A stretch of DNA of 64,000 bases. Source: Kitasatospora sp. SolWspMP-SS2h (GTDB lineage: Bacteria; Actinomycetota; Actinomycetes; Streptomycetales; Streptomycetaceae). Each line of letters opens with the position of its first letter. The first letter of the stretch is position 1. The stretch spans positions 43,281-107,280 of the forward strand of contig NZ_QLLT01000007.1 of NCBI RefSeq assembly GCF_003259315.1, in the 5' to 3' direction. The translations under genes and the position numbers were made by a program. Positions 3,001-38,411 of the stretch are shown one piece after another. The notes beneath the pieces were generated by a model. That model did not search any database. It was given only the letters and a program-made list of their open reading frames with translations, and was not told the DNA's origin.

Positions 3001-5123
3001 GCCCGCGACGCCCGGCACTACCCGCTCAGCCTGGTGGTCCTGCCCGGCCGGCGGCTGGAGGTGCGCTTCGACTACGCCCCCGACCTGCTGACCGAGGACC
3101 AGGTCGCGGTGATCGCCGACCGGTTCCGCCGGCTGCTGCTCGACCTGGCGGCCGGAACCGCCGCACGGCTGGGGCAGCTGGACGTCCTGACCGAGGACGA
3201 GACCGGCCTGCTGCGCAAGTGGAACGACACCGCCCGCCCGGCCACCGGGGCGATCCGCGCCGGAGTGGTCGAGCAGGTGCGGGAGTTCGCGCTGCGCACC
3301 CCGGCGGCGCTCGCGGTGAGTGACGGGCGCACCGCGGCCTCCTACTCCTCGCTGGTCGGCTGGGCCGACGAGCTGGCCGCCGCGCTGGCGGCCGACGGGG
3401 TCGGCCCGGACACCCTGGTCGGCGTCCTGGCCGAGCCCGGGACCGCCTTCGTCGGCGCGGTGCTGGCGGTGCTCACCGCCGGCGCGGCCTACGTGCCGCT
3501 GGACGTGCACGCGCCGCCCGCCCGGACCGCCGCGCTGCTCGCCGACGCGGGTGTCGGGCACCTGCTGGTCGGCCCCGGACAGCGGGCGCTGGCCGCCGAG
3601 CTGACCGACCGGGCCGCCCCGGCCGACGGCCCCGCACCGCACGTCCGTTCGCTGGACGGGGAGTTCAGCACCGGCGCCGTCCCGCTCGACCGGCTGGCCG
3701 AGCCGCTGGGCGGACCGGACGACCTGGCCTACGTGATCTTCACCTCCGGCTCCACCGGCCGGCCCAAGGGCGCGATGGTGCACCGCGACGGCCTGCGCAA
3801 CCACCTCGACGCCAAGATCGACGACCTCGGCCTGGCCGCGGGCGACCGGGTGGTGCAGAACGCGCCGGTCACCTTCGACGTGTCGGTCTGGCAGATGCTC
3901 GCGCCGCTGCTGGTCGGCGGCACCGTCCGGGTGGTCGACCGGGCGACGGCCGCCGACCCGGACGCCCTGTTCGCGGTGGCCGAGGCCGACCGGGCGGCGG
4001 TGCTGGAGGTGGTGCCCTCGCTGCTGCGGGCCGCCCTGGACGCCTGGGACGCGCCCGACACCACCCCCGCCACCGGCCGGCTGCGGCGGCTGGTGGTGAC
4101 CGGCGAGGCGATGCCCCCGGACCTGTGCCACCGCTGGTGGCAGCGCTACCCGGAGATCCCGCTGGTCAACGCGTACGGACCCACCGAGTGCTCGGACGAC
4201 GTCACCCACGCGCTGCTGTGCGCCGGCGACGAGGTCGGCCCGCGGGTGCCGATCGGCGCGCCGGTGCGCAACACCCGCCTGTACGTGCTCGGCGACGACC
4301 TGCGGCCCGTCCCGCCGGGCACCGCCGGCGAGCTGTACGTGGGCGGCGCGGGCGTCGGGCGCGGCTACCTGCACGACCCGGTCAGGACGGCGGCCTCGTT
4401 CGTCGCCGACCCGGACGGGCCGCCCGGGGCCCGGATGTACCGCACCGGCGACCACGTCCGGTGGCGTCCGGACGGGCAGTTGGAGTTCCTGGAGCGGCGC
4501 GACCACCAGGTCAAGGTGCGCGGCCACCGGATCGAGCCGGGCGAGGTCGAGGCCGCGCTGCGCGCCCTGCCCGGCGTCACCGACGCGGCGGTCACCGCGG
4601 TCGGGGACCGGTCGGGGACCACCCGGCTGGTCGGGTACGTGGTGGGCGGCGGCGACCTCGCCGAGGTGCGGGAGCAGCTGGCCCGGGTGCTGCCCGACCA
4701 CCTGGTGCCCACCGCCTGGGTGCCGCTGCCCGCCCTGCCGCTGACCGCGCACGGCAAGGTCGACCGCAAGGCGCTGCCCGCGCCCGACCGGGCCGCGCCC
4801 GCCGCCGGCCGGCGGCCGGCCACCGAGGCGCAGCGGGTGCTGTGCGAGGTGTTCGCCGAGGTGCTCGGCCTGGCCGGGGTCGGCGCCGACGACAACTTCT
4901 TCACCCTGGGCGGCGACTCGATCAGCTCCATCCGGGTGGCCGCCCAGGCCAGGGCCCGCGGCCTCGGGATCACCCCCCGGGACGTCTTCGGGCACCGCAC
5001 CCCCGCCGCCCTCGCGGCGGTGGCCGCCGCCGCGCCGGCCGGAGCGGCCCGCGCCGCCGCGCCGTCCCCGCTGCTGGAGCTGAGCGAGGACGAGATGGAC
5101 GAACTCGACATCGAGCTGGAGTC

Positions 5124-5127
<4 letters not shown>
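1..5127 (+). CDS. Non-ribosomal peptide synthetase, 5'-truncated by the window edge: (A)-T-E-C-A-T
   Basis: The frame is open from base 1, which already encodes the end of an adenylation domain (motif HGKVDRKAL), so the true start lies upstream. Domains in order: carrier T (GGDSI, Ser codon 223-225); epimerization E (HHTVVDG at 814-834, then [16 protein letters not shown] and FNYLGRF); condensation C ([17 protein letters not shown] at 2299-2319), expected to be D-accepting because it follows E; adenylation A ([10 protein letters not shown] from 3742, [20 protein letters not shown]); carrier T (GGDSI, Ser 4918-4920). The pocket read by eye is DVWEVTADDK; its three acidic residues suggest a basic substrate, but no known code was matched. 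The protein ends in an acidic tail ([14 protein letters not shown]) that could dock onto the next enzyme. The stop overlaps the next start as ATGA. Confidence 0.93.
4735..4939 (+). repeat. Copy of the A10-to-carrier segment found at 1-244
   Basis: Bases 1-42 equal 4735-4776, and 121-244 match 4816-4939 with two mismatches. The linker between them is 39 bases shorter in the second copy. Both copies span the end of an A domain and the carrier serine. Confidence 0.9.
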
Positions 5128-12352
<7,225 letters not shown>

Positions 12353-14777: not shown

Positions 14778-15635
14778 TCAACCCGTCCGGGCCAGTCGTC
14801 TCCTGGCCAGCCAGGCGACGGTTCTCGGATCGTGGTGGTCGAGGAACTGCGGGGTGCCGGTGTCCAGCGAGGCGATCGACGCCATCTGGTCGTCGGTCAG
14901 CTCGAAGTCGAAGACGGCGATGTTCTCCGCCATGCGCTCGGGTCGCACCGACTTGGGGATCGCCACGACGCCGCGCTGGACCAGCCAGCGCAGCACGACC
15001 TGGGCCACCGACCTGCCGTGCTGCCTGCCGATCTCGCCGAGCAGCGGGTGGGTCAGCAGTTCGGCCCTGCCCTCGGCGAGACCGCCCCAGGACTGGAGCT
15101 GTACTCCGCACTCGCGCATGAGCCGCTGGTCGGCGGTGCGCTGGAAGAACGGGTGGGTCTCGATCTGGTTGACGGCCGGCGTCGTGTCGTTGTTGACGAC
15201 CAGGTCGACGAGGCGGTCGGGATAGAAGTTGGCGACGCCGATCGCCGTGGCGAGCCCTTCCCGGTTCAGGTCCTCCATGGCGCGCCACTGCCCGTAGACG
15301 TCGCCGTAGGGTTGGTGCATCAGGTAGAGGTCGAGGTGGTCCAGGCCGAGCCTGGCGAGCGAGTCCTCGGCGGCGCGCCGGGTGTTCTCCTGGGCCGGGG
15401 CGTCCTGCACCCACAGCTTGGTCGTGACGAACAGGTCCGCCCGGGGGATGCCGCTGGCCGCGATGGCGCGGCCGACGGCTTCCTCGTTGCCGTAGTAGGG
15501 GGCCGTGTCCAGCAGCCGGTAGCCGGCGGCCAGCGCCTCGGACACGGCCCGCTCGGTCCGCTCCGGCGGGATCTGGTAGACGCCGAAACCGAGGACCGGC
15601 ATCTGCACGCCGTTGTTCAAGGTCACGTGCTGCAC
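14778..15635 (-). CDS. Aldo/keto reductase (285 aa)
   Basis: An NADPH-dependent carbonyl reductase of the AKR (TIM-barrel) family. The catalytic tetrad is visible: Asp and Tyr in [10 protein letters not shown], Lys in TTKLW and His in YLMHQPYG. The NADP-binding end [14 protein letters not shown] is also present. The frame is open further upstream, but the family N-terminus ([16 protein letters not shown]) and an AAGGG site favour the GTG at 15635, only 11 bases after the preceding gene. In this cluster it is a good candidate to reduce a phenazine aldehyde to the alcohol, or an acetyl group to hydroxyethyl. The substrate is inferred from context only. Confidence 0.9.
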
Positions 15636-15646
15636 GAGGTCGCCCT

Positions 15647-17491
15647 TCAGTTCGTCGGTGCGGGGCGCCCGGTGGAGGCGGGACGCAGGTTGTGGTTGGA
15701 GCGGAACAGGTTGTCCGGGTCGTACCGGGCCTTCAGGCGGGTGAGGCGGTCGTACGCCCCCGGGTCGTAGAACTCCCGCACCTCGTCGGGCGGGGACGGC
15801 CTGCCGTCGCCGTACACGAAGTTGAGGCTGCGTCCGACCGTCCACGGCTCGAAGGCGCGCCGGAGCCGCCGGTGCACGGGGCGGGCGTCGGCGAACGGGT
15901 CCTCACCGGTCGGGCCGACGGCTCCGTTGAGCACGCGCAGCAGGTACTGCGCCGTCCTGCCCCCCACGGCGTTCGGCACGGCCGGGGGGCGCGACATGGC
16001 ACCGCCGAGGTGGCGCAGGTCCACGATGCACCGCGGAACGACGTCCGGGCCGGTCAGGTCCGACAGCATCCGCGGGGCGGAGGAGTCCAGCCCGCGCAGC
16101 AGGATGTTGCTGCCGTAGTAGGAATGGGGGAAGTCCGGGTCTCCGAAGATCGAACCGACCCGGGCGTACGGCATCTCGTCCACGGTGTCGACGAGACGCG
16201 GTCCGACCGCCCGCAGCGGGGCGATCAGCCGTTCGCCCTCCGCGCGGGAGCCGTTGAAGGCGATCCGGATGTGAGCCGCGTACCGCCCGCGCAGCGGTTC
16301 GGGGAAGGCGGGCACGGGCGGGTAGGTCATCAGCCCGATGGAGGAAGTCAGCTGCTCCGGCACGGTGAGCGACCAGTCCGCGTAGGCGCGCAGGATGTCG
16401 GTGGCGTCGTCCGCCGCGTCGAAGAACAGCCCTCCGCCGTACACCCCGGTGATCGGCACGAGCTCCGTCTCGATCGACGTGATCGCACCGAAGTTGGCGC
16501 CGCCGCCGCGCAGCGCCCAGAACAGCTCCGGATCGGATTCCGCGGTGACGCGCCGCGGCGTTCCGTCGGCGAGGACGAGGTCGACGCCGTGTACGTGGTC
16601 GCACGCGTAGCCGAACTCCCGTCCGAGCAGCGGGGTCCCGCCGCCCAGCAGGTAGCCCGCGACACCGACGCCGGGTGACGAGCCGTTGAGGGGGGCCAGC
16701 CCGTACCGGGCCGCCTCGCGCATCACGTCCTTCCACAGGGCGCCCGCCTCCATGCGTGCCGTGCGGGCCCGGGCGTCGACCTCGACGCGGTTCATCCGCC
16801 GAGTGGTGATCAACACCCCTTCCCCCCGGAGCGGCGCGGAGATGCCGTGACCGGTGCCCTGTACCGCGATCGGCCACCGCCGCGCGGCCGCGAAACCCAC
16901 GGCGGCACGCACGTCGTCCGCCGTCGCGGCCCCCACCACGAGGGCGGGACGGTGCCGGTAGGCCGTCTGGAAGCCGGCGCACTCGGTGTCGTAGCCCTCG
17001 CTGCCGGGCCGCAGGACGGGGCCCTGGACGCTCGCGGCCAGGGGCGCGCCCGCGTCACCGGTCGTCCCTCCCCGTGGCGCCTCGCCCCCCTCCGTCCGGT
17101 GCCATTCCAGGACGCGGCGGCGCGGCGGGCCGATCAGAGCCGTGCCGTAGAGCCGGAGCCGGTCCCCTTCCAGGACCAGCTCCCGGACCTGCTCCGTTCC
17201 GATCCAGGCGGGATCCGGGGCGAGCTGGATGGTGTGGACGACGCGGGCCCCCTCCCGCCGCCAGGTCCCCGCGTAGCTGTTGAAGGTCTGGTCGCCCGGC
17301 CGGGCCGGGCCGGTGCGCATCATGGTGACGGAGAGCCGACCGTTCGGTGCGTAGAAGAGCAGACCCTCCGGCGCGGGTCCGAGCGGGCCCTCGTGGCGGG
17401 CGCCGTCCTGGTCCAGGTCGTGGTAGGACGCGAGCCGCCAGACACCGGCGATGCCGTCGCCTGCCGTGGACGGGGCGGTGGGCTGCGGCAC
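15647..17491 (-). CDS. Lipocalin-like domain fused to BBE-type FAD-dependent oxidase (614 aa)
   Basis: Residues about 12-132 match the lipocalin-like family ([42 protein letters not shown]). From about residue 160 follows a berberine-bridge-enzyme type oxidase: [23 protein letters not shown] with His215 for likely covalent FAD attachment, [31 protein letters not shown] and a C-terminal BBE segment ([17 protein letters not shown]). The cysteine used for bicovalent FAD is not evident. The upstream TGA overlaps a GTG at 17500, but the GTG at 17491 lies 8 nt after AAGGAG and is chosen. The role is probably oxidation or aromatisation of a phenazine intermediate, with the lipocalin part possibly holding the hydrophobic ligand. 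Both roles are inference. Confidence 0.9.
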
Positions 17492-17496
17492 GGTCC

Positions 17497-19359
17497 TCAC
17501 TCCTTGCTCTTCGTGACGGGGGCGGCGGGCAGGACCGCGCGGCCGGCGGCGCCGGCGGGTGCCACGGCACCCGCCTCCCGCAGCTCGCCGAGGGTGGATA
17601 GCAGACCGGCCGGCTCGGAGAGTCGGCCGCCGGGATGCGGCAGGGAGGACACGACGAGCAGGTTCGCGGGCAGGCCGGGGCGGCGCTTGAGCAGACCGGT
17701 CAGCGACCGGCCGGGCCCGCATTCCAGCAACACGTCCGGCGAGGAGGCCAGCAGCGTGCCGACCGCGTCGGAGAAGCGCACGGTCTGCCTCAGGTGCCGG
17801 GCCCAGTAGTCGGGGTCCGTCGCCTCCTGCGCGGTGATCCACCGACCCGTGACACAGGAGAGGAACTCCCGGGTGGGCGGGCGGAGGGTCAGTCGCGCGG
17901 CGGCCGCGCGCAGTCGGTCGACGCAGCCCTCCATCAGCCTGCTGTGGAAGGCGTGCGAGACGGGGAGCCGCCGGCCCGGCGTCCCGGCGGCGGTGAGCCG
18001 GGCCTCGATCCGCACGATGTCCCGCTCGGTTCCGGCGAGCACGCAGGACGAGGGGGCGTTGACGGCGGCCAGGTCCGCGCCCAGCTCCAGGAAGGGCGCC
18101 AGTCCGTCCTCCGGCAGCGGTACGGCGAGCATCACCCCGGTGGGGGCCTCCTGCATGAGCCGGGCCCGCAGGCAGACGAACTCCAGGGCCTCGGGCAGCG
18201 GCATGACCCCGGCGAGGGTGGCCGCGACGTACTCCCCCAGGCTGTGCCCGATCAACGCCACGGGTTCCACACCCAGCCGCTGCCAGGTGCGCGCCAGCGC
18301 GTACTCCAGCAGGAAGACGGCCGGTTGGGCGACGACGGTCTGCCGCAGCGCTTCCGCGTCCTCCCCGTCCGGGTCGGCCGGCACCGCGCGGAGGTCCGGT
18401 CCGCCCACCTCCCGCAGCACTTCCAGGCCGTGATCGAACTCCTCGGCGAAGACGGGGAGTTCCTGGCGCAGGGCGACTCCCATGCGGGCGTACTGCGATC
18501 CCTGGCCGGGGAGGACGAACGCCACCCGGGGCCGCTCCCCATTGTTCCGGGGCACGGGCACCGGCGTGGCCGGGGCCGGGGCGGGGGCGGCGTCGGGCAC
18601 CGCCACGGCCTGCCGGATCCGCCGGAGCATCAGGTGCCGCTGCCCCGCGTCCCGGAAGGGGAAGTGACCCCCTGCCAGGCACGACAGTTCGAAGGCGCGG
18701 CTGGTGTGGGCACTCCACCCCGACACTTGCAGCGCGTCGCGTTCCAGGTCGCCGACGAACGCCGTGACGGGGACGTCCAGCAACGGCCCCGGGCGGTACC
18801 GGTAGGTCTCGTAGACCGTGATGTCGGCGCGGATGGTGCCGAGGGCCATCCGCAGCAGCCGGGGATCGGCACGGACCTGGGCGGGCAGTCCGCCCCAGCG
18901 CCGCTCGACCTCGGCCAGCAGCGCGTCGTCGTCCAAGGTGTGGACGGGCTGCCCGCCGCGGTCGAGGGGCGGCGGGGCGCTGGACGACAGGAACAGCCGC
19001 CGCGGCAGCTCCCGCCCGGCGTCGCGGAGCGCGCGGGCCACCTCGAAGGCCACCAGGCCGCCGAGGCTGTGCCCGAAGAGCGCGAACGGCCGCTCGGGGC
19101 GCAGGACGTCCAGGACCGCGCCGACCACCGAATCCATCGAGGTGAGCGGCGGCTCGCCCAGTCTGGACCCCCGGCCGGGCAACTGTATGCCGGACACCTG
19201 GATCTCCGGCAGCTCCTCCTCGAACCGGAGGTACTCGCCGGGCGATCCTCCGGCGTGGGTGAAGCAGAAGAGGTCGGCTGCGGCGTCCGGGCGAGGCCTG
19301 CGGGTGACGATCCAGCGGCCTCCTCGCGCCGGACCGGCACGCCGCGACGTCTTCTCCAT
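17497..19359 (-). CDS. Thioesterase II - malonyl-type acyltransferase fusion (620 aa)
   Basis: Residues 1-250 are a type II thioesterase (FCFTHAGGSPGEY, Ser98 in GHSLGG, His232 in AGGHFPF). After an Ala/Pro linker (about 255-272) comes a full PKS acyltransferase: GQGSQ (285-289), Ser373 in GHSLGEY, HAFHS (469-473, the usual malonyl-CoA signature) and LECGPGRSL. The ATG at 19359 lies 8 nt after GAGGAGG; an in-frame GTG at 19365 sits too close to it. The gene starts 13 nt after the KS-AT-ACP gene, whose own AT is non-functional, so this AT probably loads malonyl onto that ACP in trans while the TE edits or releases. The fusion of the two activities in a free enzyme is uncommon. Confidence 0.92.
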   Translation of the reverse strand: MEKTSRRAGPARGGRWIVTRRPRPDAAADLFCFTHAGGSPGEYLRFEEELPEIQVSGIQLPGRGSRLGEPPLTSMDSVVGAVLDVLRPERPFALFGHSLGGLVAFEVARALRDAGRELPRRLFLSSSAPPPLDRGGQPVHTLDDDALLAEVERRWGGLPAQVRADPRLLRMALGTIRADITVYETYRYRPGPLLDVPVTAFVGDLERDALQVSGWSAHTSRAFELSCLAGGHFPFRDAGQRHLMLRRIRQAVAVPDAAPAPAPATPVPVPRNNGERPRVAFVLPGQGSQYARMGVALRQELPVFAEEFDHGLEVLREVGGPDLRAVPADPDGEDAEALRQTVVAQPAVFLLEYALARTWQRLGVEPVALIGHSLGEYVAATLAGVMPLPEALEFVCLRARLMQEAPTGVMLAVPLPEDGLAPFLELGADLAAVNAPSSCVLAGTERDIVRIEARLTAAGTPGRRLPVSHAFHSRLMEGCVDRLRAAAARLTLRPPTREFLSCVTGRWITAQEATDPDYWARHLRQTVRFSDAVGTLLASSPDVLLECGPGRSLTGLLKRRPGLPANLLVVSSLPHPGGRLSEPAGLLSTLGELREAGAVAPAGAAGRAVLPAAPVTKSKE

Positions 19360-19372
19360 CCTCACATCCTCC

Positions 19373-21853
19373 TCAAGGTGCCGGGACGGTCTGTCCGGTG
19401 ATCAGGGCCGCCAACTCCGCCGGGGTCTGCGCCTCGTACAGGACGGCGGCATCGAGCCGGGCGGCGGCCGGGAAGAATTCGCGGACGCGGCCCAGCAGTT
19501 GGACGGCGACGAGCGAATCGCCACCGAGGTCGAAGAAGCTCTCGTCGGGCTCGACGGCCTCCAGGCCGAGCGTTTCGGCGAACAGGTCCGCGACGGTCCG
19601 GGGGACGGAGTCCTCCGCACGGTCGGACGGCCCCCCGACGGCCGTCCCGCCCGGCGGGTCGGCGGCAGCGGTCGCGGGAACCCCGCCCGGGAGCGGCTCC
19701 ACGACGTACCGCTGCCGTTCGAACGGGTAGGACGGCAGTGGGACCCGGCGCCGCTTCGCTCCCGCGTGGAGCCCCTCCCAGCGCACCGCGGTCCCGGCGA
19801 GCCAGAGGCGACCGGCGGCCTCCAGCAAGGCGGGCAGCGCGTCCTGCCGCCCGCCCTCCGGGAGGACCGGCATCCAGAGGTGGTCGGTCGCCTCGCCGGG
19901 GCCGGGCATCCGGGTGAGCACGGGGAGCCCGGGGGTGCGGGGTTCCGCCACGGCTCCGGTGACGGTCCGGCGGACCGCCTCTCGCACCGTGCAGACCCCG
20001 GCCACGACGTCCGCCACCACGGCGCCGGTACCGCTGCCCGCGACGGCCGCCGCACGCAGGCCCCAGGACTGCCAGAGCCGGGCGAGCGCGAGTTCGGTGG
20101 CCAGGACGTCGACGTCCGCGCGGACGTGCCCGGCGTCCGCGGCGCTCAGGCACTCCTGGTAGGCCCGGACGAACACCGGCTGCGTGGCGTGCAGGTCACG
20201 TGTCCGGGAGGAGTCGACGCTGCCGGGGAAGAAGAGGGCGACCGGCCGTGCCGGGTCCTGCCCGCCGGAGTCGACCAGCCGGCCCGGGGCGAGGCCGGTC
20301 AGGACCCGGAGGGCGTCGTCGGCATCGCGGACCACCGCACATCGGCGCCACGCGTGTTCGCGGCGTCCGGTCTGCAGCGTCCAGGCGATGTCGGCGACCG
20401 GCGACTCCCGGCCGGGCGACCGCAGCCGGGCCGCGAGCCGGTCGGTCGCCGCGTCCAGGGCCGTCGGCGTGCGGGCCGACAGCACGAGCAGGTGCCAGGG
20501 CTGCGCGGGGTCCGCGGGCGCCGGGGCGGGAGCCTGCTCCAGCAGGAGGTGGGCGTTGGTTCCACCGATGCCGAAGGAGCTGACCCCCGCACGGCGCGGC
20601 ACGCCCTCGTCGGCGCGCCACTCCTGCGTGTCGGCGGCGACCACGAACGGGCTCGCCGCGAAGTCGATCCGAGGGTTCGGGACGGTGAAGTTGAGGCTCG
20701 CCGGGATGACTCCGTGCTGGAGGGCGAGCACCGCCTTGATCAGTCCGGCCGCGCCGGCGGCCGCGTCGGTGTGGCCGATGTTCGTTTTGACCGAGCCGAT
20801 CCGGCAGAAGCCGCGGCGGTCGGTGTCCTGGCGGAACGCCCTGGTCAGCGCGGCGATTTCGATCGGGTCGCCGAGCGGGGTGGCCGTGCCGTGGGCCTCT
20901 ACGTAGCCGATGGTCGCCGCATCGACACCGGCGATCAGCTGCGCGTCGCGGATCACCGCTGCCTGCCCCTCCACGCTGGGCGCGGTGAAGCCGATGCGGT
21001 GGGCTCCGTCGTTGTTCACCGCGGAGCCGCGCAGCACCGCGCGCACGGTGTCGCCGTGCGCCAGCGCATCGGACAGGCGCTTGAGCACGACGATCCCGGC
21101 GCCGTCGCCGCCCACCGTCCCGGCCGCCCCGGCGTCGAAGGTGCGGCAGGTGCCGTCGCGGGAGAGGATGCCGCCCTCGACGTAGGGGCTCTCCTTCGCG
21201 GGGACGCGGACCGCCGCACCGCCCGCGAGAGCCACGTCGCAGTCACCGGCCAGCAGTGCCTGCGCGGCGGTGTGGACCGCGACCAGTGAGGTGGCGCACG
21301 CTGCCTGGACCACCACCGCGGGGCCGCGCAGACCGATCTTGTAGGCGACCCGCGAGGCGAGGTAGTCCGGCGCGTTGCCGACCAGGATCTCCATGTCCGT
21401 CAACGGGCCCAGCTCCTCGCGGCGGGACCGGACGACCTCCGCGTACGAGGTGTCGGTGCTGCCCGCGTAGACGCCGATGGCCCCCGGGAAGCGCTCCGGG
21501 TCGCAGCCCGCGTCCTCCAGCGCCTCCACCGCGCACTCCAGGAAGACCCGGTGCTGGGGGCTGATGACGCGGGACTCCCGGGGCGAGAAGCCGAAGTACG
21601 CGGCGTCGAACCACTCGGGGTCCTCGAGCAGCCCCCGGGCCGGAACGTACTCCGCGGCGCCCGCCGGTCCGGCAGGCCCGGGAACGGGGCGAGGGGGAAA
21701 GCGGGTGACGCTGTCCAGGCCCCGGACCAGGTTCTGCCAGAACTCTTCCGGGTCGGCGGCCCCGGGGTAACGGCACGCCATGCCGATGACGGCGACGAAC
21801 GAACCGTCGTCCTCCCGCGGGGCCGTGACGTCGTCGTGGACGCGGTCACTCAT
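19373..21853 (-). CDS. Polyketide synthase KS - vestigial AT - ACP (826 aa)
   Basis: The ketosynthase (about 17-440) is complete: Cys186 in AACATS, His321 in EAHGTATPLGDP and His361 in KTNIGHTDAAAG. The following AT remnant (about 538-700) is half normal length: GQG is replaced by FPGSV, the GHSxG Ser is lost (AGSGTG, 606-610) and no xAFHS box is present. The post-AT linker (LPSYPFERQRY) remains. The ACP ends the protein (GGDSL, Ser780). There is no KR, DH or ER, so one round would give a beta-keto acyl chain, presumably on a phenazine carboxyl starter. The ATG at 21853 follows GGAGGGGG and overlaps the ACP gene by 8 nt. Confidence 0.93.
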   Translation of the reverse strand: MSDRVHDDVTAPREDDGSFVAVIGMACRYPGAADPEEFWQNLVRGLDSVTRFPPRPVPGPAGPAGAAEYVPARGLLEDPEWFDAAYFGFSPRESRVISPQHRVFLECAVEALEDAGCDPERFPGAIGVYAGSTDTSYAEVVRSRREELGPLTDMEILVGNAPDYLASRVAYKIGLRGPAVVVQAACATSLVAVHTAAQALLAGDCDVALAGGAAVRVPAKESPYVEGGILSRDGTCRTFDAGAAGTVGGDGAGIVVLKRLSDALAHGDTVRAVLRGSAVNNDGAHRIGFTAPSVEGQAAVIRDAQLIAGVDAATIGYVEAHGTATPLGDPIEIAALTRAFRQDTDRRGFCRIGSVKTNIGHTDAAAGAAGLIKAVLALQHGVIPASLNFTVPNPRIDFAASPFVVAADTQEWRADEGVPRRAGVSSFGIGGTNAHLLLEQAPAPAPADPAQPWHLLVLSARTPTALDAATDRLAARLRSPGRESPVADIAWTLQTGRREHAWRRCAVVRDADDALRVLTGLAPGRLVDSGGQDPARPVALFFPGSVDSSRTRDLHATQPVFVRAYQECLSAADAGHVRADVDVLATELALARLWQSWGLRAAAVAGSGTGAVVADVVAGVCTVREAVRRTVTGAVAEPRTPGLPVLTRMPGPGEATDHLWMPVLPEGGRQDALPALLEAAGRLWLAGTAVRWEGLHAGAKRRRVPLPSYPFERQRYVVEPLPGGVPATAAADPPGGTAVGGPSDRAEDSVPRTVADLFAETLGLEAVEPDESFFDLGGDSLVAVQLLGRVREFFPAAARLDAAVLYEAQTPAELAALITGQTVPAP

Positions 21854-22244
21854 GCCGTTCCCCCTCCCCGAACGCGGTCGGCCGGCCGATCCGCCCGTTC
21901 CGCCTCCCGGCGAGACGGGCCCGGCCGCCGGCGCGGGAGCCCTCGGCACGACCGGCGCCGGTCCCCGGCCCCGGGACGTGCCCGTCGAGGTAGGCCGCCA
22001 GGCTGCGGACGGTCGGATGGTGGAAGAGTTCGATCAGCGGGGGGTTCGTGCCCAGCCTGGTGGTGATCCGGTCGAGAACCATGTGCAGCAGGACGGAGTG
22101 GCCGCCGAGGTCGAAGAAGTTCTGCTCCACGCTGACGTGCGGTACTTCCAGCACCTCGGACCAGATGGCGGCCAGGGCCCGCTCGGTGTCCGTGAGCGGG
22201 GGGCCGGGGGCGGCGCCGGCGGAGGGCATCGGCTCTGTGCTCAC
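21846..22244 (-). CDS. Stand-alone acyl/peptidyl carrier protein (132 aa)
   Basis: One carrier domain with the phosphopantetheine site in FFDLGGHSVLL and the helix-4 region PTVRSLAAYLDGH. A Gly/Arg-rich basic tail of about 40 residues follows (GRARLAGRRNGRIGR), which is not part of the fold. The GTG at 22244 has a strong GGGAGGA site. An alternative ATG at 22319 overlaps the upstream stop as ATGA and would give 157 aa, but has no ribosome-binding site. It lies directly upstream of the KS and overlaps it, so it is a likely carrier of the starter acyl group, for example a phenazine carboxylate. Confidence 0.88.
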   Translation of the reverse strand: MSTEPMPSAGAAPGPPLTDTERALAAIWSEVLEVPHVSVEQNFFDLGGHSVLLHMVLDRITTRLGTNPPLIELFHHPTVRSLAAYLDGHVPGPGTGAGRAEGSRAGGRARLAGRRNGRIGRPTAFGEGERHE

Positions 22245-22315
22245 GGCTGTCCTCCCGCACGGGCGGGGCACGCCTGGTCCGGCGTCGTCGGCAGGTCGGG
22301 TGTCACGTGTGCTCC

Positions 22316-28311: not shown

Positions 28312-28962
28312 TCACGGCTGAAGTCTGCGGACGCACCACTGCTCCCCGCTCCACGTGTACTGGAGTCGCCGGTGGAGCCGATCGGAGGCACTCGACCAGA
28401 ACTCCACGTGCGTTCCCCGCAGTTCATATCCGACATACCTGTCCGGTCGTGCCATCGGGGCCGGTCGCCGTGCCGCTCCGGCTTCCAGCAGACGGACCCG
28501 ATCGCGCAGCTCGGCGGGGTCCGCGAGGAGCTCGCTCTGCCGGGACGAGCTGCTCATCGGGTGCAGGGCCGGATGCCGGCCGTGCCACAGCGACTCCGAC
28601 GTCCGACCGTCGACCGGCTCGAAGGTCCCGGCGACGAGCAGCTGCCGACCGATCTCGCGCCAGTAGAACAGGGCGCTGCCGGACTTCGTCGCGCGGATGT
28701 CGTGCGCCTTGCGGCTGGTGGTGTGCGTGGCGAAGACGAGGCCGCGCGTGGTGGCCCCGACCATCGTCATCATGCGCGAGGACAGCCGGAAGCCCTCGTC
28801 GACCGTGGAGACCGCAGCCCCGCGCGGCTCGGCGCAGCCCCGTTCCACGGCCTCGTCGAGCCACCCTGCGAGCAGCTCCGACGGTCCCGGCGGCGGTTCG
28901 CCCTCCCATTCCGGGAAGGGGACGTCGTGCGCTCCGGACAGGCTCTCGTACTGGGCGCTCAC
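28312..28962 (-). CDS. phzG: PhzG-like FMN-dependent oxidase, pyridoxamine-phosphate oxidase family (216 aa)
   Basis: In phenazine pathways PhzG oxidises reduced tricyclic intermediates using FMN. The family is recognised from MMTMVGATTRGLVFATHTTSRKAHDIRATKSGSALFYW (here discontinuous in key positions: TSRK, SGSALFYW), followed by RQLLVAGTFEPVDG and the C-terminal GYELRGTHVEFW and RLQYTW. The GTG at 28962 overlaps the phzF stop as GTGA, so the two are co-translated. It is the last gene of the phz operon, as in classical phz clusters. Confidence 0.9.
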   Translation of the reverse strand: MSAQYESLSGAHDVPFPEWEGEPPPGPSELLAGWLDEAVERGCAEPRGAAVSTVDEGFRLSSRMMTMVGATTRGLVFATHTTSRKAHDIRATKSGSALFYWREIGRQLLVAGTFEPVDGRTSESLWHGRHPALHPMSSSSRQSELLADPAELRDRVRLLEAGAARRPAPMARPDRYVGYELRGTHVEFWSSASDRLHRRLQYTWSGEQWCVRRLQP

Positions 28963-29810
28963 TGGTCCTCCGGGTATTCGAGCGTTCCCCTGCCGACGGT
29001 CACGCACTGGCCCCACGTCCGTGACCGCAGCCCGTCGCCGCCGGGGTCGAGCCGGACGTGCATCTCCGAGAACCGGCCGATCTCGACGCCCTGTTCGATG
29101 CGGCACGGACGACCGGTCGGCGCGTCCCGGTAGGTGTGCGCGTGCGCCAGCAACGGACCCGCGACCGATCCGGTCGCCGCGTCCTCGACGACTCCGTAGG
29201 CGGGGGAGAACATCCGGTTGCGCCACGTCGTCCCCGAGCCGGTGTAGCAGTTGAAGGCGACGTCGGGGAACTTGGCCAGCCTGGTGTGGTCCGGCCGCAG
29301 GTCGCGCAGGGAGTCACGGCTGTCGAGCGCGATCACGAAATGCCGGGCGCCGACGTCGTACAGCTCGATCGGGGCGACGGGTTCGGCACCCAGTGCCGCG
29401 ACGATCTCGGCCGTCGGGACCTCCACCGGGGACGCCCGCGGTACCGGCAGGGTGAATCCGGCCCAGAGTTCCTCGTCCCGGAGCTCCACCCAACCGCGCA
29501 CCTCGCCGCGCGGAACGTGAACCGTGACTTCGCCCGTCACGTCGAACCGGGTGTGCAGGGCAGCCAGGATCCCGATCATCGGATGGCCGGCGAACGGTAG
29601 TTCCCGGGTGGGTGTGAAGATCCGCGCCCGGAAGCGGGCCGGCGAGCCGGTCGGCATGACGAAGGCGACCTCGGACAGGTTGAGTTCGGTCCCGATCGCC
29701 TGCATGACCCCCTCCGACAGGTCGGTCCCGGGGAAGAAGACCGCGACCGGATTGCCGTGGAACGCCGATCGCGCGAAGACGTCGATCAGGAGGTAGGGGT
29801 GCCGGATCAC
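28959..29810 (-). CDS. phzF: PhzF, trans-2,3-dihydro-3-hydroxyanthranilate isomerase (283 aa)
   Basis: PhzF isomerises DHHA to the reactive aminoketone that dimerises into the phenazine ring system. Family marks are the N-terminal IDVFARSAFHGNPVAVF, NLSEVAFV containing the catalytic Glu, FTPTRELPFAGHP, and the C-terminal half repeat FNCYTGSGTTWRNRMFSPAYGVVEDAATGS. Length and both half-domains are normal. The start overlaps the phzE stop by four bases (ATGA, 29807-29810). Confidence 0.95.
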   Translation of the reverse strand: MIRHPYLLIDVFARSAFHGNPVAVFFPGTDLSEGVMQAIGTELNLSEVAFVMPTGSPARFRARIFTPTRELPFAGHPMIGILAALHTRFDVTGEVTVHVPRGEVRGWVELRDEELWAGFTLPVPRASPVEVPTAEIVAALGAEPVAPIELYDVGARHFVIALDSRDSLRDLRPDHTRLAKFPDVAFNCYTGSGTTWRNRMFSPAYGVVEDAATGSVAGPLLAHAHTYRDAPTGRPCRIEQGVEIGRFSEMHVRLDPGGDGLRSRTWGQCVTVGRGTLEYPEDQ

Positions 29811-31684
29811 GGGTTCTCCAGTCGCCTCAGGGCATCCGCCAGGACGGCCGTACCGTCGACGCTCAAGGCGGACTCGGGATGGAACTGCATGGAAACGAAG
29901 GTGTGCCCGACCAGTCCGGTGACGTCACCGGCGGAATCCGTCGTGACCTGGACGGGGTACCGCGGACCGTTCCCGGGCACGGCGGCGAAGGCGTTGTAGA
30001 AGCCGAGGCGTCTGCGGCTGCCGAACCAGTCCACGCTCCTGGCCACTCCCTGGTTCGGCACCGCGAGCCGGCGGACGGTGAGGCCGAGGACGCGGCAGAG
30101 GATCTGATGGCTGAGGCACACCGCGAGAAACGGCCTCGACGTCGCCAGCGCCTGCGTCAGCGCCCGTTCCAGGAGGACGACCCGGGCGTCGCCCCGGTCG
30201 CACGGATCGCCGGGGCCGGGACCGAAGACCACGAGCGCGTCGTCGTCGAGCGCCGTGACGGCGTGCGCGTTGGGCACGATGTCGACGGCGTACCCGAACG
30301 CGCTGAGCTGATGGGCCAGCATGCTGTTGAAGTCGTCCTCGGCATCCACCAGGACCGCCCGCCGGGCGGCGGCGCCGTGCGCCGCGGCGGCCCCGAACCA
30401 CAGCGGGTTGATGTCGGTGCGCCGGTTGCCGATGGCCCGCGCCAGATCGGGATCGTCGGCGGCAGGGGGCTCGGGTGGGCCGAACGGGGTCGGTCCCAGG
30501 TCGCCGGGCACCACCGCCCTGCCGCAGACGGCGCTCAGGACGGCGGCCGCCTTGGCCTGGGTCTCGGCCAGTTCCCGCTGGGGGGACGAGTTGCGGACGA
30601 GGGTGGCTCCGACGTCGGCGCGCATCCGCCACGCCTCACCGTGCCGCCGCACTTGCGCCGAGCGGATGTTGATGGCCGAGTCGAAGGAGCACGTCGAGTC
30701 CCCCGCCGGCTCGAAGAGTCCGAGGTAGCCGGCGTAGTACGACCGTCCGTGCGGCTCGTGCCGGGCGATCACCCGGCACGCGTTGCGGATCGGGCTCCCG
30801 GTCACGGCGGGGGAGAACATGGTGTGCACGAGGACGTCCGACAGCGGGTGACGGGTCCTCCCCTCGATGGTGAACTCGGTGTGCGTGACCCGCGACATGT
30901 GCCGCAGACCCGGCCCGGTCACCGACAGGGAGCCCGGTTCGCACAACGAGGCCAGCATCTTGAGCTCCTCGTCCAGGACCATGGAGAGCTCGTCGGACTC
31001 CTTGGAGTCGCTGAGGAATGCGAGCAGCCGCGCCTTCTCCGCGGCGGAGTCGGCCGCGTCCCGGGCGACCGTCCCGGAGATCGGGTTCATCGTCACCCGC
31101 CGGCCGGTCACCGAGACGTGGCGCTCGGGGGTGGCGCCCATCACGTACAGGTCGCCGGTCCGGACCAGGAAGGTCCAGTAGGCGCCCCGCTCGTTCCGGA
31201 GCAGATCGGCGAACGCCGTCAGCATCGCGAGGTCGTCGACACCGTCCAGTTCGGCGACGTAGGTCCGCTTGATGACGAAGTTCGAGCCGGCGCCCCGGGA
31301 GATCTCGTCCGTGATGATCCGCTGCACCACCGCGCGGTACTCGGCGTCGGTGTCCAGGAACGCGCCGCCGCCGGCCTTGGGCTTCGCCCCGTCGGCCAGG
31401 CCCTCGAAATCGGCCGGCGAGAACGCGTGCACCTCGCGGGCGGTCAGCAGGAGCAGTTCCTCCTCGTCGTCGACCGCGTCGAAGCCGCGCTCGGCCAGCT
31501 GGCGGAACGGGACCAGGAGCAGGCTCGGCAGGTGGTGGGCCTGTGCGGACGACGCGGCGGAGCGCACCGACCCGTACGCGGACGTGCTGCCGATCAGGCA
31601 GGTCACCCGGTCGTGGCCCGACTCCGCCCGGTGCAGGAGCGCGTAGTCGTGCCCGGAGACCAGGCCGGCGATGTCAGGCGGCAC
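29807..31684 (-). CDS. phzE: PhzE, 2-amino-2-desoxyisochorismate synthase (625 aa)
   Basis: PhzE converts chorismate and glutamine to ADIC. The N-terminal two thirds is a chorismate-binding domain (NFVIKRTYVAEL, MGATPERHVSV, MNPISGTVAR, DELKML-type helix, THTEFTIEGR, TMFSPAVTGSPIRNAC). The C-terminal third (from about 425) is a glutamine amidotransferase with Cys in AVCLSHQIL and His in MQFHPES. The GTG at 31684 overlaps the end of phzD by 11 bases. PhzC (DAHP synthase) is absent nearby, so chorismate must come from primary metabolism. Confidence 0.95.
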   Translation of the reverse strand: MPPDIAGLVSGHDYALLHRAESGHDRVTCLIGSTSAYGSVRSAASSAQAHHLPSLLLVPFRQLAERGFDAVDDEEELLLLTAREVHAFSPADFEGLADGAKPKAGGGAFLDTDAEYRAVVQRIITDEISRGAGSNFVIKRTYVAELDGVDDLAMLTAFADLLRNERGAYWTFLVRTGDLYVMGATPERHVSVTGRRVTMNPISGTVARDAADSAAEKARLLAFLSDSKESDELSMVLDEELKMLASLCEPGSLSVTGPGLRHMSRVTHTEFTIEGRTRHPLSDVLVHTMFSPAVTGSPIRNACRVIARHEPHGRSYYAGYLGLFEPAGDSTCSFDSAINIRSAQVRRHGEAWRMRADVGATLVRNSSPQRELAETQAKAAAVLSAVCGRAVVPGDLGPTPFGPPEPPAADDPDLARAIGNRRTDINPLWFGAAAAHGAAARRAVLVDAEDDFNSMLAHQLSAFGYAVDIVPNAHAVTALDDDALVVFGPGPGDPCDRGDARVVLLERALTQALATSRPFLAVCLSHQILCRVLGLTVRRLAVPNQGVARSVDWFGSRRRLGFYNAFAAVPGNGPRYPVQVTTDSAGDVTGLVGHTFVSMQFHPESALSVDGTAVLADALRRLENP

Positions 31685-32294
31685 TGGCGCTCAACTCGTT
31701 CAGGGTGAGCACCCGCCCGGAGTACCGCGCGACGTGGTCGAGTGCGGCGGCGTGGCCCTCGGCGTCGAAGTCGGCGACGCAGTCGGACAGCACGAAGGGC
31801 CGGATGTCCCGGTTGAAGGCGTCGAGTGCCGTCGTGAGGATGCCGACGCTGGCGTACACGCCCGCGATCACCAGGTCGTGGATGCCCTGACGGCGCAGGG
31901 CCCATTCGAGTCCGTTCCCGACGAACGCGCTGTAGCGCCATTTCGTGAAGACCGGCTCGGAGCCGTCGGGCCGGACCCGGTCGACGATCGAGGTGTCGCC
32001 GGCCCGCCGGTCCATTCCGGCCCCCCAGAAGTCCGAGAGGAGCCCGCGCTCGTCCGTCGACATGCTGCCGGGCTGTGCGGTGTACATCACCGGGATCTTC
32101 GCCCGGCGCGCCCAGTCGACCGCCCCGGCGACCCCGTCGACCAGGGCCGTCCGCAGGGGAGGTTCGAACGCCTTGACGAAGTAGTCCTGCATGTCGTGGA
32201 CGAGCAGGGCGGCATTCCGCGGCTCCACCCGCCACCGGTCGCCGGGACCGTCGGGCCGCAGTCGTGGCAGCTCGTAGGCTGCAATGGGTTGCAT
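31674..32294 (-). CDS. phzD: PhzD, isochorismatase-type ADIC hydrolase (206 aa)
   Basis: PhzD hydrolyses the vinyl ether of ADIC to give DHHA and pyruvate. The catalytic Asp is in LLVHDMQDYFV, the Lys in VFTKWRYSAF, and the nucleophile region reads GVYASVGILTTALDAF, with Ser where ordinary isochorismatases have Cys, as known for PhzD. The ATG at 32294 follows AGGGA at 10 nt. It lies between phzB and phzE in the order B-D-E-F-G. Confidence 0.95.
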   Translation of the reverse strand: MQPIAAYELPRLRPDGPGDRWRVEPRNAALLVHDMQDYFVKAFEPPLRTALVDGVAGAVDWARRAKIPVMYTAQPGSMSTDERGLLSDFWGAGMDRRAGDTSIVDRVRPDGSEPVFTKWRYSAFVGNGLEWALRRQGIHDLVIAGVYASVGILTTALDAFNRDIRPFVLSDCVADFDAEGHAAALDHVARYSGRVLTLNELSASAA

Positions 32295-32314
32295 GCTGTG
32301 TAGTCCCTCGTTGG

Positions 32315-32779
32315 TTAGGTCGGGATTCCCGTCCGGACGATCTGCGGTACGGCGATGCCCAGTGCCTCGTACTGCCGCAGCGGGTTCATGAACTCGCGCT
32401 GCCGGGTGATCAAGCCGTCGGCGTTGAATTCGAACGAGTGGAGGAAGTGGTTCTCGTAGTGGCCGTCCGGGTAGCCCTCGAACCGGATGGCGCCGCGCCC
32501 GTCGCACTCGGCCCAGAAGAACGTCGGGTGCTGGGTGTCGAAGATCTGGACGTCGTACCACTCCCAGTCCGGGAAGCACCGGAGGGACCAGACGCCGTGC
32601 TCCCGCAGCCCCTCCCTGCCGTGCGTGGCGATCGGGTGGGGCTTGTCGCTCGTCCAGAGGCCGGCTTGGCCGTCGGCCGCGAACAACTCGTAGCGGGCCC
32701 GCCGCTGCTCCTCGCCCTTGCAGGCGAGGTAGCGCCGTACGACGTCGCGGTTACGGGCACGCTCTTCGTCAGGCAGCAT
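32315..32779 (-). CDS. phzB: PhzA/PhzB-family phenazine ring-condensing protein (154 aa)
   Basis: A small SnoaL/NTF2-fold protein that speeds the condensation of two aminoketone molecules. The family pattern is clear: RNRDVVRRYLACKGEEQRRARYELF, GLWTSDKPHPIATHGREGL, CFPDWEWYDVQIF, FFWAECDGRGAIRFEGYPDGHYEN and FINPLRQ-like FMNPLRQYEALGI. Only one copy is present, as in most clusters outside Pseudomonas. The ATG at 32779 lies close after GAGGA; an upstream ATG at 32818 in the same frame has no site. Confidence 0.93.
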   Translation of the reverse strand: MLPDEERARNRDVVRRYLACKGEEQRRARYELFAADGQAGLWTSDKPHPIATHGREGLREHGVWSLRCFPDWEWYDVQIFDTQHPTFFWAECDGRGAIRFEGYPDGHYENHFLHSFEFNADGLITRQREFMNPLRQYEALGIAVPQIVRTGIPT

Positions 32780-34464: not shown

Positions 34465-36435
34465 CTAGTCGGCACCGGTCGTTCCCTCCGTCGCGACACC
34501 GGTCCTCACGACGTCGATCCAGCGCAGCCGCCACAACTCCCTGACCTCGTCGGTCACCGGGGCGGTGATCGCCGAGCGCTCCGCGATCACGGCGGCCGTC
34601 TCGGCGCTGATGCGCCGCTGCCGGTGGTAGGTGCGCGCCGCGGTGTCCACCAGGAACCACTGGTCCTCCGGCAGCCGCCGTTCGAGCCGGACCTGCACCG
34701 GAAGGTCGACCGTGAAGTCCGCCAGGCCGGTCGTCGCCGACCGGGTCACGACGAGGTCCCCGAGGACCAGCGCGTCGAGCGAGCTCGTCAGCAGCAGCCG
34801 GATCGCGTCCCCGGGAGTCTCGACCATCGGCTCGTGGCTGTTGTTCATGGAGGTGTTGAGCACGACCGGCACCCCGGACGCCTGTCCGAAGGCCTCGATC
34901 AACGCGTGGAAGCGCGGGTTCTGCCGGGCGTCCACGATCTGCAGGCGGGCGGACCCGTCGATGTGGGTGGTGGCTCCCAGGGATTCCCTGAACTCCGGCC
35001 GGACCTGCACGACGTGCGACATGTAGGCGAAGGACGTCTCGGTCCCGCCGAGGTCGAAGTACTTGTCGCCGCCCTCCGGCGTGGTCGCCGGCGCGAACGG
35101 CCGGTACCCCTCGCGGGCCTTGATCGCGAAGTTGACGCGGTCGCGGTTCGCGGCCGGCCGCGGATCGGCCAGGATGCTGCGGTTGCCGAGTGCGCGTGGC
35201 CCGAATTCGCCGCGTCCCTGGAACCAGCCGATGATCTTGTCGTCCGCGAGGAGCGCGGCCGCCTCGCGCACGGCGTCGGTGGCAGGACGGACCGTGATGA
35301 GCGGGCGGAACGCCTCCACCGCGCGGTCCGTGTCCGCGGCGCCGTACGCCGCTCCGAGGTACGGGTCGAACGGCTTCGACGACGGGGCCCGGAAGTCGCC
35401 CCGCCGGATGAGCGCGGCACCGAGCGCCGCGCCCGCGTCGTGCGAGGCCGGATGCACGTACAGCGCGTCGAAGAGTCCGGAGGCCAGGATCCGGCCGTTC
35501 AGCGTCGAGTTGTGCGCGACGCCGCCGGAGAAGGCCAGGCGCCTCGTGCCCGTCTCGTCCCGCCAGTGCCTGATCAGCCGCAGGGAGTTGGTCTCCAGCC
35601 ACAGCTGCACGGCAGCGGCGAAGTCCTTGTGGATCTGGTCGAACGGATCGTCGGCGGCCCGAAGCTTCCATCCGCTCTCGGACAGCCCGTGCCGGAACGC
35701 TTCGATGTTGAGCCGTACGCCGTTGACGGGATCCGTCGGCGCCACCCTGTCGAGCAGCTTGCCGAACCGCGCCGGATCACCGTAGGGCGCGAGACCCATG
35801 ACCTTGTACTCGTCGCCCCAGCGGTAGCCCAGCGCGTGCGTCGCGTAGGCGTACATCATGCCGAAGGACTTCTCCAGCGGCAGCCGGCCCACGCGGTGCA
35901 GGCCGCCGTCGCGCTGGACGAAGGCGGTCGTCGAGTCCCGTCCGCCGCCACCGTCCATGACGACGACCAGCGAGTCCTCACTCCAACCGGACCCGTGCAG
36001 CGTCGCGGCGGCGTGCGCGGAGTGGTGGTCGACGAACTGCACGTCCGCCGCCGCGACTCCGAAGCCGAGTTCGGAGAGCCGCTCGTGGATCAGTTCGCGG
36101 GCCGTGCGACGGGGTACGTCGGAACGCCAGAAGTAGATGTCGTTCAGGCTGTGGTCGCAGAACCGCTCGTCGAAGTAATAGCCGACCGCGTCGATGTCGT
36201 TCGCGGAGATCCCGAGCGCCCGTAATCCGGCGGCGACCGCTTTCGCCGGGAACCAGGTGGTCTTCTTGACGCGGCTGTGCCGTTCCTCTTCGGCGGCCCA
36301 TAACACCTCGCCGTCCGGGGCCAGGATCACCGCACTCGCGTCATGGAAGTAGATGTCGGGCATTCCGTACGTCTCGTCCCCACGGAATGGGCCGCCGCTC
36401 AACCCAAGGAAATAGCGTGCCATCTTGCCAGTCAT
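34465..36435 (-). CDS. O-carbamoyltransferase, NodU/CmcH family (656 aa)
   Basis: These enzymes make carbamoyl-AMP from carbamoyl phosphate and ATP in a YrdC-like half and transfer carbamoyl to a hydroxyl in a Kae1-like half. Seen here: HDASAVIL, EEERHSRVK, DHHSAHAAATLHGSGW (metal histidines), VMDGGGGRD, FSGGVAHNSTLNGRI, then GRGEFGPRALGNRSILADPR and NTSMNNSHEPMVETP. It is the first gene of the leftward phz operon. Two TTA leucine codons (36223-36225 and 36301-36303, minus strand) suggest bldA dependence. Its codon use is less GC-biased than the NRPS genes. ATGs at 36435 and 36423 are both possible; GGAG is adjacent to the first and 12 nt from the second. Likely target: the hydroxymethyl or hydroxyethyl group of the phenazine (inferred). 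Confidence 0.92.
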   Translation of the reverse strand: MTGKMARYFLGLSGGPFRGDETYGMPDIYFHDASAVILAPDGEVLWAAEEERHSRVKKTTWFPAKAVAAGLRALGISANDIDAVGYYFDERFCDHSLNDIYFWRSDVPRRTARELIHERLSELGFGVAAADVQFVDHHSAHAAATLHGSGWSEDSLVVVMDGGGGRDSTTAFVQRDGGLHRVGRLPLEKSFGMMYAYATHALGYRWGDEYKVMGLAPYGDPARFGKLLDRVAPTDPVNGVRLNIEAFRHGLSESGWKLRAADDPFDQIHKDFAAAVQLWLETNSLRLIRHWRDETGTRRLAFSGGVAHNSTLNGRILASGLFDALYVHPASHDAGAALGAALIRRGDFRAPSSKPFDPYLGAAYGAADTDRAVEAFRPLITVRPATDAVREAAALLADDKIIGWFQGRGEFGPRALGNRSILADPRPAANRDRVNFAIKAREGYRPFAPATTPEGGDKYFDLGGTETSFAYMSHVVQVRPEFRESLGATTHIDGSARLQIVDARQNPRFHALIEAFGQASGVPVVLNTSMNNSHEPMVETPGDAIRLLLTSSLDALVLGDLVVTRSATTGLADFTVDLPVQVRLERRLPEDQWFLVDTAARTYHRQRRISAETAAVIAERSAITAPVTDEVRELWRLRWIDVVRTGVATEGTTGAD

Positions 36436-37310: not shown

Positions 37311-38411
37311 GTGTCCACCGCAGCCAACCCGTTACTCGACCTCCCACACGGCACCCGGCCCGACCCGGAGGAGTTCCTCCGGGCCGCCCTGGAGTGGCAC
37401 TTCCACCCGGACACCGGATCGCCCTACTGGATCGACCGGGCGAAGTCACTGGATTTCGACCCGCGTCGCGACATCAAGACCTTCGATGACCTGCGGCTGT
37501 TCCCGAACGTCGCGAACGAGATGCGGAAGGTGCCGGCGCAAGCGCTGGTCCCACGGGGGTACGGGCCGGCCCCCCGCATCGCGGGCGTCTACGAGAGCGG
37601 CGGTACCACCGGGGCGCCCAAGCGCGTGGTGTGCCCCGAGGACTGGTTGGACCGCCTGATCGCCTGGAGCAACGCCAACCTCGACGAACACGGCTTCCCG
37701 CGCGGCGCCGACTGGCTCGGGCTCGTACCGTCCGGCCCTCACATCGTCGGGGAGATCTTCCGGCGCTCGGCGGCGACGCACGGACGGTACGGCTTCCAGG
37801 TCGACCTGGACCCGCGCTGGGTGAAGAAGCTCATCGCGTCGGGCAGGAAGGACCAGGCGGACGCGTACGCGGAACACGTGGTGGACCAGGCGGAGTTCGT
37901 GCTGCGCACCCAGGACATCGGCGTGCTCACCATCACTCCCGCGCTGCTGGAGCGGCTGGTGCGGCGCGAGGAGCTGGTGGCACTCGTCAACGACAAGGTG
38001 CGCGCCATACGGTGGGGCGGTACCCAGCTCGACCCCGACAGCCACCACCTGTACCGCACCGAGATCTTCCCCGGCCTCGCCCTGTACGGCCACTACGGCA
38101 GCACGATGATCCTCGGCATCGCCGGTCAGCGCGTGCCCGCGGCCGACGAGGACAGCTGCGTCTTCGACACGTTCTCGCCGTACGTGACGTTCTCGGTGGT
38201 GGACCCGCGGACCCGCCGGCCCGTGCCGTTCGGGGAACGGGGACAGGTGGTCATGAACCACGTCTCCAAGGCGCTCTTCCTCCCCAACAACCTCGAACGG
38301 GACCTGGCCACCCGCGTCGAGGCGCTGCCCGGACGCATCGGCGACGCCGTCGCCGACGTCGCGCCCGTCACCCACTTCGAGGACCAGGCGGTCGTCGAGG
38401 GGGTCTACTGA
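37311..38411 (+). CDS. EhpF-like phenazine-carboxylate adenylating enzyme (366 aa)
   Basis: A short ANL-type enzyme without a separate C-terminal lid, like EhpF of the Pantoea griseoluteic acid pathway, which activates phenazine-1,6-dicarboxylate. Seen: phosphate loop YESGGTTGAPKRVV, LGLVPSGPHIVGEIFRR, IRWGGTQLDPDS, YGHYGSTMILG and the C-terminal FEDQAVVEGVY. The GTG at 37311 follows AGGAG by 5 nt. Codon 8 is TTA (37332-37334), a rare codon in this genome type. The gene overlaps the EhpG-like reductase by one base, so the two proteins are probably made together and work as a pair. Confidence 0.85.
   Translation: MSTAANPLLDLPHGTRPDPEEFLRAALEWHFHPDTGSPYWIDRAKSLDFDPRRDIKTFDDLRLFPNVANEMRKVPAQALVPRGYGPAPRIAGVYESGGTTGAPKRVVCPEDWLDRLIAWSNANLDEHGFPRGADWLGLVPSGPHIVGEIFRRSAATHGRYGFQVDLDPRWVKKLIASGRKDQADAYAEHVVDQAEFVLRTQDIGVLTITPALLERLVRREELVALVNDKVRAIRWGGTQLDPDSHHLYRTEIFPGLALYGHYGSTMILGIAGQRVPAADEDSCVFDTFSPYVTFSVVDPRTRRPVPFGERGQVVMNHVSKALFLPNNLERDLATRVEALPGRIGDAVADVAPVTHFEDQAVVEGVY

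Follow-up and report, generated by a model that had tools for sequence, protein, structure and literature searches.

A KS-AT°-ACP polyketide synthase adjoining a thioesterase-acyltransferase fusion in a phenazine cluster of Kitasatospora sp. SolWspMP-SS2h

The PKS and TE-AT genes and their cluster

The stretch of DNA analysed here (the window, 64,000 nucleotides) contains a phenazine-PKS-NRPS hybrid cluster at 13298-39775, in which a minus-strand gene (19373-21853, start ATG at 21853) encodes a polyketide synthase (PKS) of 826 residues. The order of its domains is KS (20534-21811, Pfam ketoacyl-synt N and C), KS-AT linker (20249-20533, PF16197 / PF22621), a short AT remnant (AT°, 19859-20248), post-AT linker (VPLPSYPFERQRY, 19694-19858) and ACP (19388-19612, PF00550, with the serine in GGDSL), all on the minus strand; both linkers are kept in the alignment with intact relatives. 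A Pfam scan of the 826-residue protein detects the KS and PP-binding domains and no AT domain. The residues of the KS and ACP are kept, as the earlier note had proposed: Cys186, His321 and His361 of the KS are invariant in an alignment of 28 homologues, and the ACP serine is present. The AlphaFold model of the whole PKS has a mean pLDDT of 83.6, and its best Foldseek match is OzmQ KS1 (4OQJ).

The remnant, which has no Pfam AT match and was delimited by alignment with intact ATs, comprises approximately 130 residues (536-665). In the alignment with intact relatives, Gly608 (codon 20030-20032) occupies the position of the nucleophilic serine, so that GHSLG becomes GSGTG, and the GQGGQ loop is replaced by GSVDSS; the central subdomain is deleted, and with it the catalytic Arg (ARGxL) and His (xxGHS / HAFHS). 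The claim that the AT has lost its catalytic serine and about half of its length is thus borne out. A cis-AT module carries a functional AT in the same chain, and with the catalytic residues and the central subdomain absent the cis AT of this PKS is, as judged from sequence, dead. In the AlphaFold model, AT° nevertheless forms a compact small alpha/beta unit, with pLDDT values mostly of 80-95 over residues 536-630.

Eight bases past the PKS stop begins a second minus-strand gene (17497-19365), which encodes a protein of 622 residues (TE-AT) in which a type II thioesterase is fused to a malonyl-type AT. Both domains are recognised by Pfam and all their catalytic residues are kept, in agreement with the intact AT behind a type II TE that had been described for this gene. 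The TE half (18631-19320, PF00975, E 1e-41) aligns with RifR over its length and retains Ser100 and the GGHF His; the GHSxG Ser and GGHF His of a type II TE are therefore present, here in a domain that is fused to an AT instead of free-standing as in the RifR type. The AT half (17566-18531, PF00698, E 7e-44) retains Q288, S375, R400 and H474, the last within the malonyl-type HAFH motif, and contains GHSLGEY; in terms of sequence motifs alone, all the features of a malonyl-CoA AT (GHSxG, GQGxQ, Arg, HAFH) are found. The two halves are joined by a short linker defined by alignment (18532-18630), which is longer in the homologues from Streptomyces sioyaensis DSM 40032 (L030) and Streptomyces sp. 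Y2F8-2 (L031). AlphaFold predicts two well-defined domains and a low-confidence linker (mean pLDDT 83.2, pTM 0.65), and a Foldseek search with the AT half, which adopts an AT fold, matches PKS AT structures, the best being the SpnD AT (5YDA).

Directly upstream of the PKS lies a gene for a separate carrier protein (21850-22260, minus strand, PP-binding); in most of the AT-null clade described below, a homologue of it is encoded next to the KS or is part of the same chain. Downstream are genes for a lipocalin-like protein and a BBE-type FAD oxidase (15647-17452, minus strand), which are syntenic with L030, L031 and L096 (a Burkholderia ubonensis plasmid), and for an aldo/keto reductase (14778-15845, minus strand, PF00248). 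The phenazine core (28312-32767, minus strand), recognised by Pfam and by tblastn with B. ubonensis proteins, comprises PNPOx/PhzG-like, PhzF, PhzE, PhzD and PhzA/B genes, the PhzA/B match being to PF03284 with an E value of 7e-65. A carbamoyltransferase is encoded at 34465-36435, and an AMP-binding protein and an aldehyde-dehydrogenase-like protein at 37323-39775 (plus strand) are 65% identical to a B. ubonensis pair. Among the other genes of the window are those for NRPS, an ABC transporter and free carrier proteins.

At least 12 proteins of the B. ubonensis MSMB2035 cluster, including PhzA/B, D, E and F and the AT-null PKS, have counterparts in the window. L096 is the conjugative plasmid pMSMB2035, and it bears a cluster syntenic with the actinobacterial window, AT-null PKS included, suggesting that the cluster may have been transferred between phyla.

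Relatives and descent of the module

The PKS/TE-AT pair is kept in the same order in L030 and L031, with identities to the window of approximately 64% for the PKS and 61-70% for TE-AT, and its flanks are also as in the window: the carrier protein gene precedes the pair, and the genes for the aldo/keto reductase and the lipocalin-FAD oxidase follow it. The remnants of these two species read GHGAG (L030) and GHGTG (L031), the same Ser-to-Gly change as in the window; because both this change and the TE-AT neighbour recur in S. sioyaensis and Streptomyces sp. Y2F8-2, neither is attributable to chance or to a sequencing error. These remnants reach only sub-threshold Pfam AT scores (29.2 bits in L030 and 26.8 in L031, with a cut-off of 32.7), and the remnants of the relatives match the AT profile weakly and only at about positions 1-124 and roughly 206-325. 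In L031 the AT-null PKS (7122-9926) carries a tandem duplicated ACP at its C-terminus.

Comparison of the other loci reveals a graded series of AT states. L023-L026 and L029 encode intact KS-AT-ACP proteins with a separate TE. L022 combines a KS-AT°-ACP (GTGVG) and a TE with a KS°-AT protein; in the latter (4004-6289) the KS Cys is replaced by Gly, the AT is intact and an ACP is absent, so that it and the adjoining KS-AT°-ACP are each half-dead and complementary in what they keep. Two Streptomyces plasmids (L094 and L095) carry a KS-AT°-ACP, a TE and a free linker-AT protein. The B. ubonensis plasmid L096 has a KS-AT°-ACP and a TE, and L019-L021 have a carrier-KS-ACP and a TE with the AT almost wholly deleted; at these four of the ten AT-null loci, no AT gene is found within the 18-26 kb examined. 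In the other six, a dedicated AT (TE-AT, KS°-AT or free linker-AT) lies at most approximately 6 kb from the AT-null PKS. The same kind of AT remnant is present in seven independent loci. More distantly, and outside the AT-null clade, Actinokineospora bangkokensis (L089) has a KS-KR-ACP protein with its AT deleted and a separate linker-AT.

Full-length TE-AT was detected in one of 395 genomes of the family, a rarity that is approximate since three candidates were scored per genome, and a class-wide search with the PKS at E 1e-185 gave no match beyond the window. On a plasmid of Azospirillum argentinense (L097, 12007-14709), an unrelated TE-AT-AT fusion, annotated fabD, lies beside large PKS genes.

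The descent of the module was examined in an IQ-TREE phylogeny of 42 KS domains, in which support is given as bootstrap/SH-aLRT and the values are rough, the bootstrap being not fully settled. The ten KSs whose AT is dead or deleted form one clade (100/99), and the sister group is formed by five KSs of intact KS-AT-ACP proteins (100/99). Ten of the 11 reference trans-AT KSs (thiomarinol, Bacillus velezensis) constitute a separate clade (100/99), and the eleventh is a long branch that likewise falls outside the AT-null clade. OzmQ KS1 and OzmN KS2 are placed elsewhere, with a cis-AT KS (95/86). The KS of the window therefore lies among cis-AT KSs and outside the clade of classical trans-AT systems, and the earlier proposal of an origin apart from those lineages is upheld by its position in the cis-AT KS-AT-ACP lineage. 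It is the KS phylogeny that carries this conclusion; the cis type of the post-AT linker, from which the earlier note had argued, is a weak argument, since the same linker is retained by AT-less KSs from the trans-AT system of oxazolomycin. The tree supports a single secondary loss of the AT within cis-AT PKSs, separate from the classical trans-AT PKSs.

Selection was assessed from dN/dS among the window, L030 and L031. In the PKS the values are 0.21-0.23 (KS), 0.24-0.33 (ACP) and 0.46-0.59 (AT°); in TE-AT they are 0.32-0.37 (AT half) and 0.41-0.47 (TE half). From these ratios both the PKS and TE-AT look functional. The ratio for AT° is relaxed without being neutral, and the remnant may therefore retain a structural role.

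Origin and role of the replacement AT

In the AT tree, the ATs of the three TE-AT proteins cluster together (100/100) but are not placed firmly beside any other AT, the AT of L022 joins the cis ATs of the sister group (98/92), and the ATs of L094 and L095 are placed elsewhere. An AU test does not reject a grouping of TE-AT with the sister-group and L022 ATs (p = 0.352), nor one with the L094/L095 ATs (p = 0.089). The AT of TE-AT may thus descend from the AT of this same family, and the "capture" that the earlier note suggested, understood as one from another PKS, is a possible origin. Traces of a KS-AT linker persist in the TE-AT linkers of L030 and L031, most plainly in L030, and suggest that the AT of TE-AT was once part of a KS-AT protein. 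A derivation from an L022-type KS°-AT is unsupported, given the separate positions of the L022 and TE-AT domains in the AT tree; a link to Corallococcus ATs in a FastTree analysis (0.904) disappeared in the more careful tree.

The PKS may be trans-AT in the functional sense, having no working cis AT and an adjoining TE-AT gene whose product would supply one. The locus is probably best read as a single-module PKS of cis-AT descent whose built-in AT has decayed and whose acylation has moved to the neighbouring TE-AT. That TE-AT would load the ACP of the PKS is inferred from three features: the genes adjoin, the pair is kept in three genomes, and the catalytic residues are intact. An acyl starter, probably phenazine carboxylate, would be loaded onto the separate carrier protein; the AT half of TE-AT would transfer malonyl from malonyl-CoA in trans to the ACP of KS-AT°-ACP; the KS, given its intact residues, would extend the starter once; and the TE half, by analogy with its family, would either hydrolyse mis-loaded acyl groups or release the product. 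In esmeraldin biosynthesis, phenazine-1,6-dicarboxylate is extended by a net one carbon, and one malonyl extension by the PKS followed by decarboxylation would fit an extension of this type.

A different division of labour, in which the ACP is charged by FabD or the AT of another cluster, leaving TE-AT to act on a different carrier protein of the cluster or just to edit, is considered unlikely. Since four of the ten AT-null loci have no AT nearby, such a module can apparently be supplied by a general malonyltransferase, and a housekeeping enzyme of this kind may be able to load it. The genome of the window encodes 16 AT domains, including short free-standing ORFs that could be FabD, and the window itself encodes several NRPS proteins and free carrier proteins. 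Against this stand the eight-base spacing and the retention of the pair in three species, as well as the stronger constraint on the AT of TE-AT than on AT°.

It is somewhat less probable again that TE-AT loads a starter or an unusual extender unit in place of malonyl. In L094/L095, the genes beside the free AT encode an acyl-CoA dehydrogenase, a 3-hydroxyacyl dehydrogenase and a carrier protein that is likewise free, a combination suggestive of an unusual extender unit there, but TE-AT has the malonyl-type HAFH and GHSLGEY motifs, and no extender-unit genes adjoin it. Its compact predicted fold notwithstanding, a remnant that is still catalytic through a displaced nucleophile is highly improbable, as AT° lacks the Ser, Arg, His and oxyanion loop and nearly all of it is deleted in L019-L021; self-loading by AT° was rejected on the grounds of the missing catalytic residues. 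That the PKS is a decaying pseudogene or an assembly artefact, as its partly missing domain might imply, is scarcely credible and is contradicted by conservation, given the open frame, a KS dN/dS of approximately 0.21, the intact KS and ACP residues and the like remnant in seven independent loci.

With acylation by the neighbouring TE-AT as the preferred reading, a broader history can be sketched tentatively, at somewhat short of even confidence: the cis AT may have been inactivated once, in an ancestor, after which dedicated trans ATs would have been recruited independently at least three times within this small clade (fused to a TE, carried on a KS-dead partner, or freed with the linker), with TE-AT as a combined load-and-edit enzyme.

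Comparison with known systems and implications

The closest published arrangement is that of OzmQ KS1 (oxazolomycin, S. albus JA3453, PDB 4OQJ) and its orthologue PtxC (phthoxazolin), which are KS-partial AT-ACP proteins supplied by a separate AT, OzmM/PtxA (PMC5764310). Like the PKS of the window, OzmQ KS1 carries a partial AT in an AT-less system, and its remnant is of similar length; unlike it, OzmQ KS1 groups with OzmN KS2 in a different region of the KS tree (95/86), so that its AT loss looks independent and that of the AT-null clade was probably a separate event. The partners also differ, the AT of OzmQ being a tandem AT protein with an oxidoreductase domain and that of the window being TE-AT. 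Classical trans-AT PKSs likewise lack a working AT of their own, the AT being carried by another protein, but the KS of the window is outside their clade. Secondary displacement of ATs from cis to trans has been published for algal PKSs (PMC4661987, in the portion available); these PKSs are eukaryotic and multimodular, and that portion describes neither a remnant nor a TE fusion.

For the cluster as a whole, a 48% similarity to esmeraldin has been reported for the B. ubonensis MSMB2035 cluster (PMC10232511). A possible likeness of the window to the esmeraldin cluster (MIBiG BGC0000935) runs through this B. ubonensis cluster, with at least 12 genes common to it and the window, whereas NRPS and carbamoyltransferase genes are added in the window. 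An AT° PKS/TE-AT pair like that of the window could already be present in the esmeraldin cluster.

Partial-AT KS proteins (OzmQ KS1, 4OQJ) and the supply of acyl groups by a trans AT are thus already known. A literature search, mainly of open-access papers with few subscription papers covered, found nothing relevant on TE-AT fusions, and as far as the open literature shows, the TE-AT partner and the graded AT series within one clade are new.

The route from built-in to separate ATs is a matter of debate, and in bacteria the cis- and trans-AT PKSs are generally regarded as distinct lineages. Across the AT-null clade and its sister group, ATs range from intact through Ser-to-Gly and half-deleted forms to ones that are almost fully deleted, beside different replacement ATs, and several of these loci are in culturable Streptomyces. 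The TE-AT protein could be useful in PKS engineering, and the loci provide a natural series for testing how far a module tolerates loss of its AT, as well as a record of built-in loaders turning separate.
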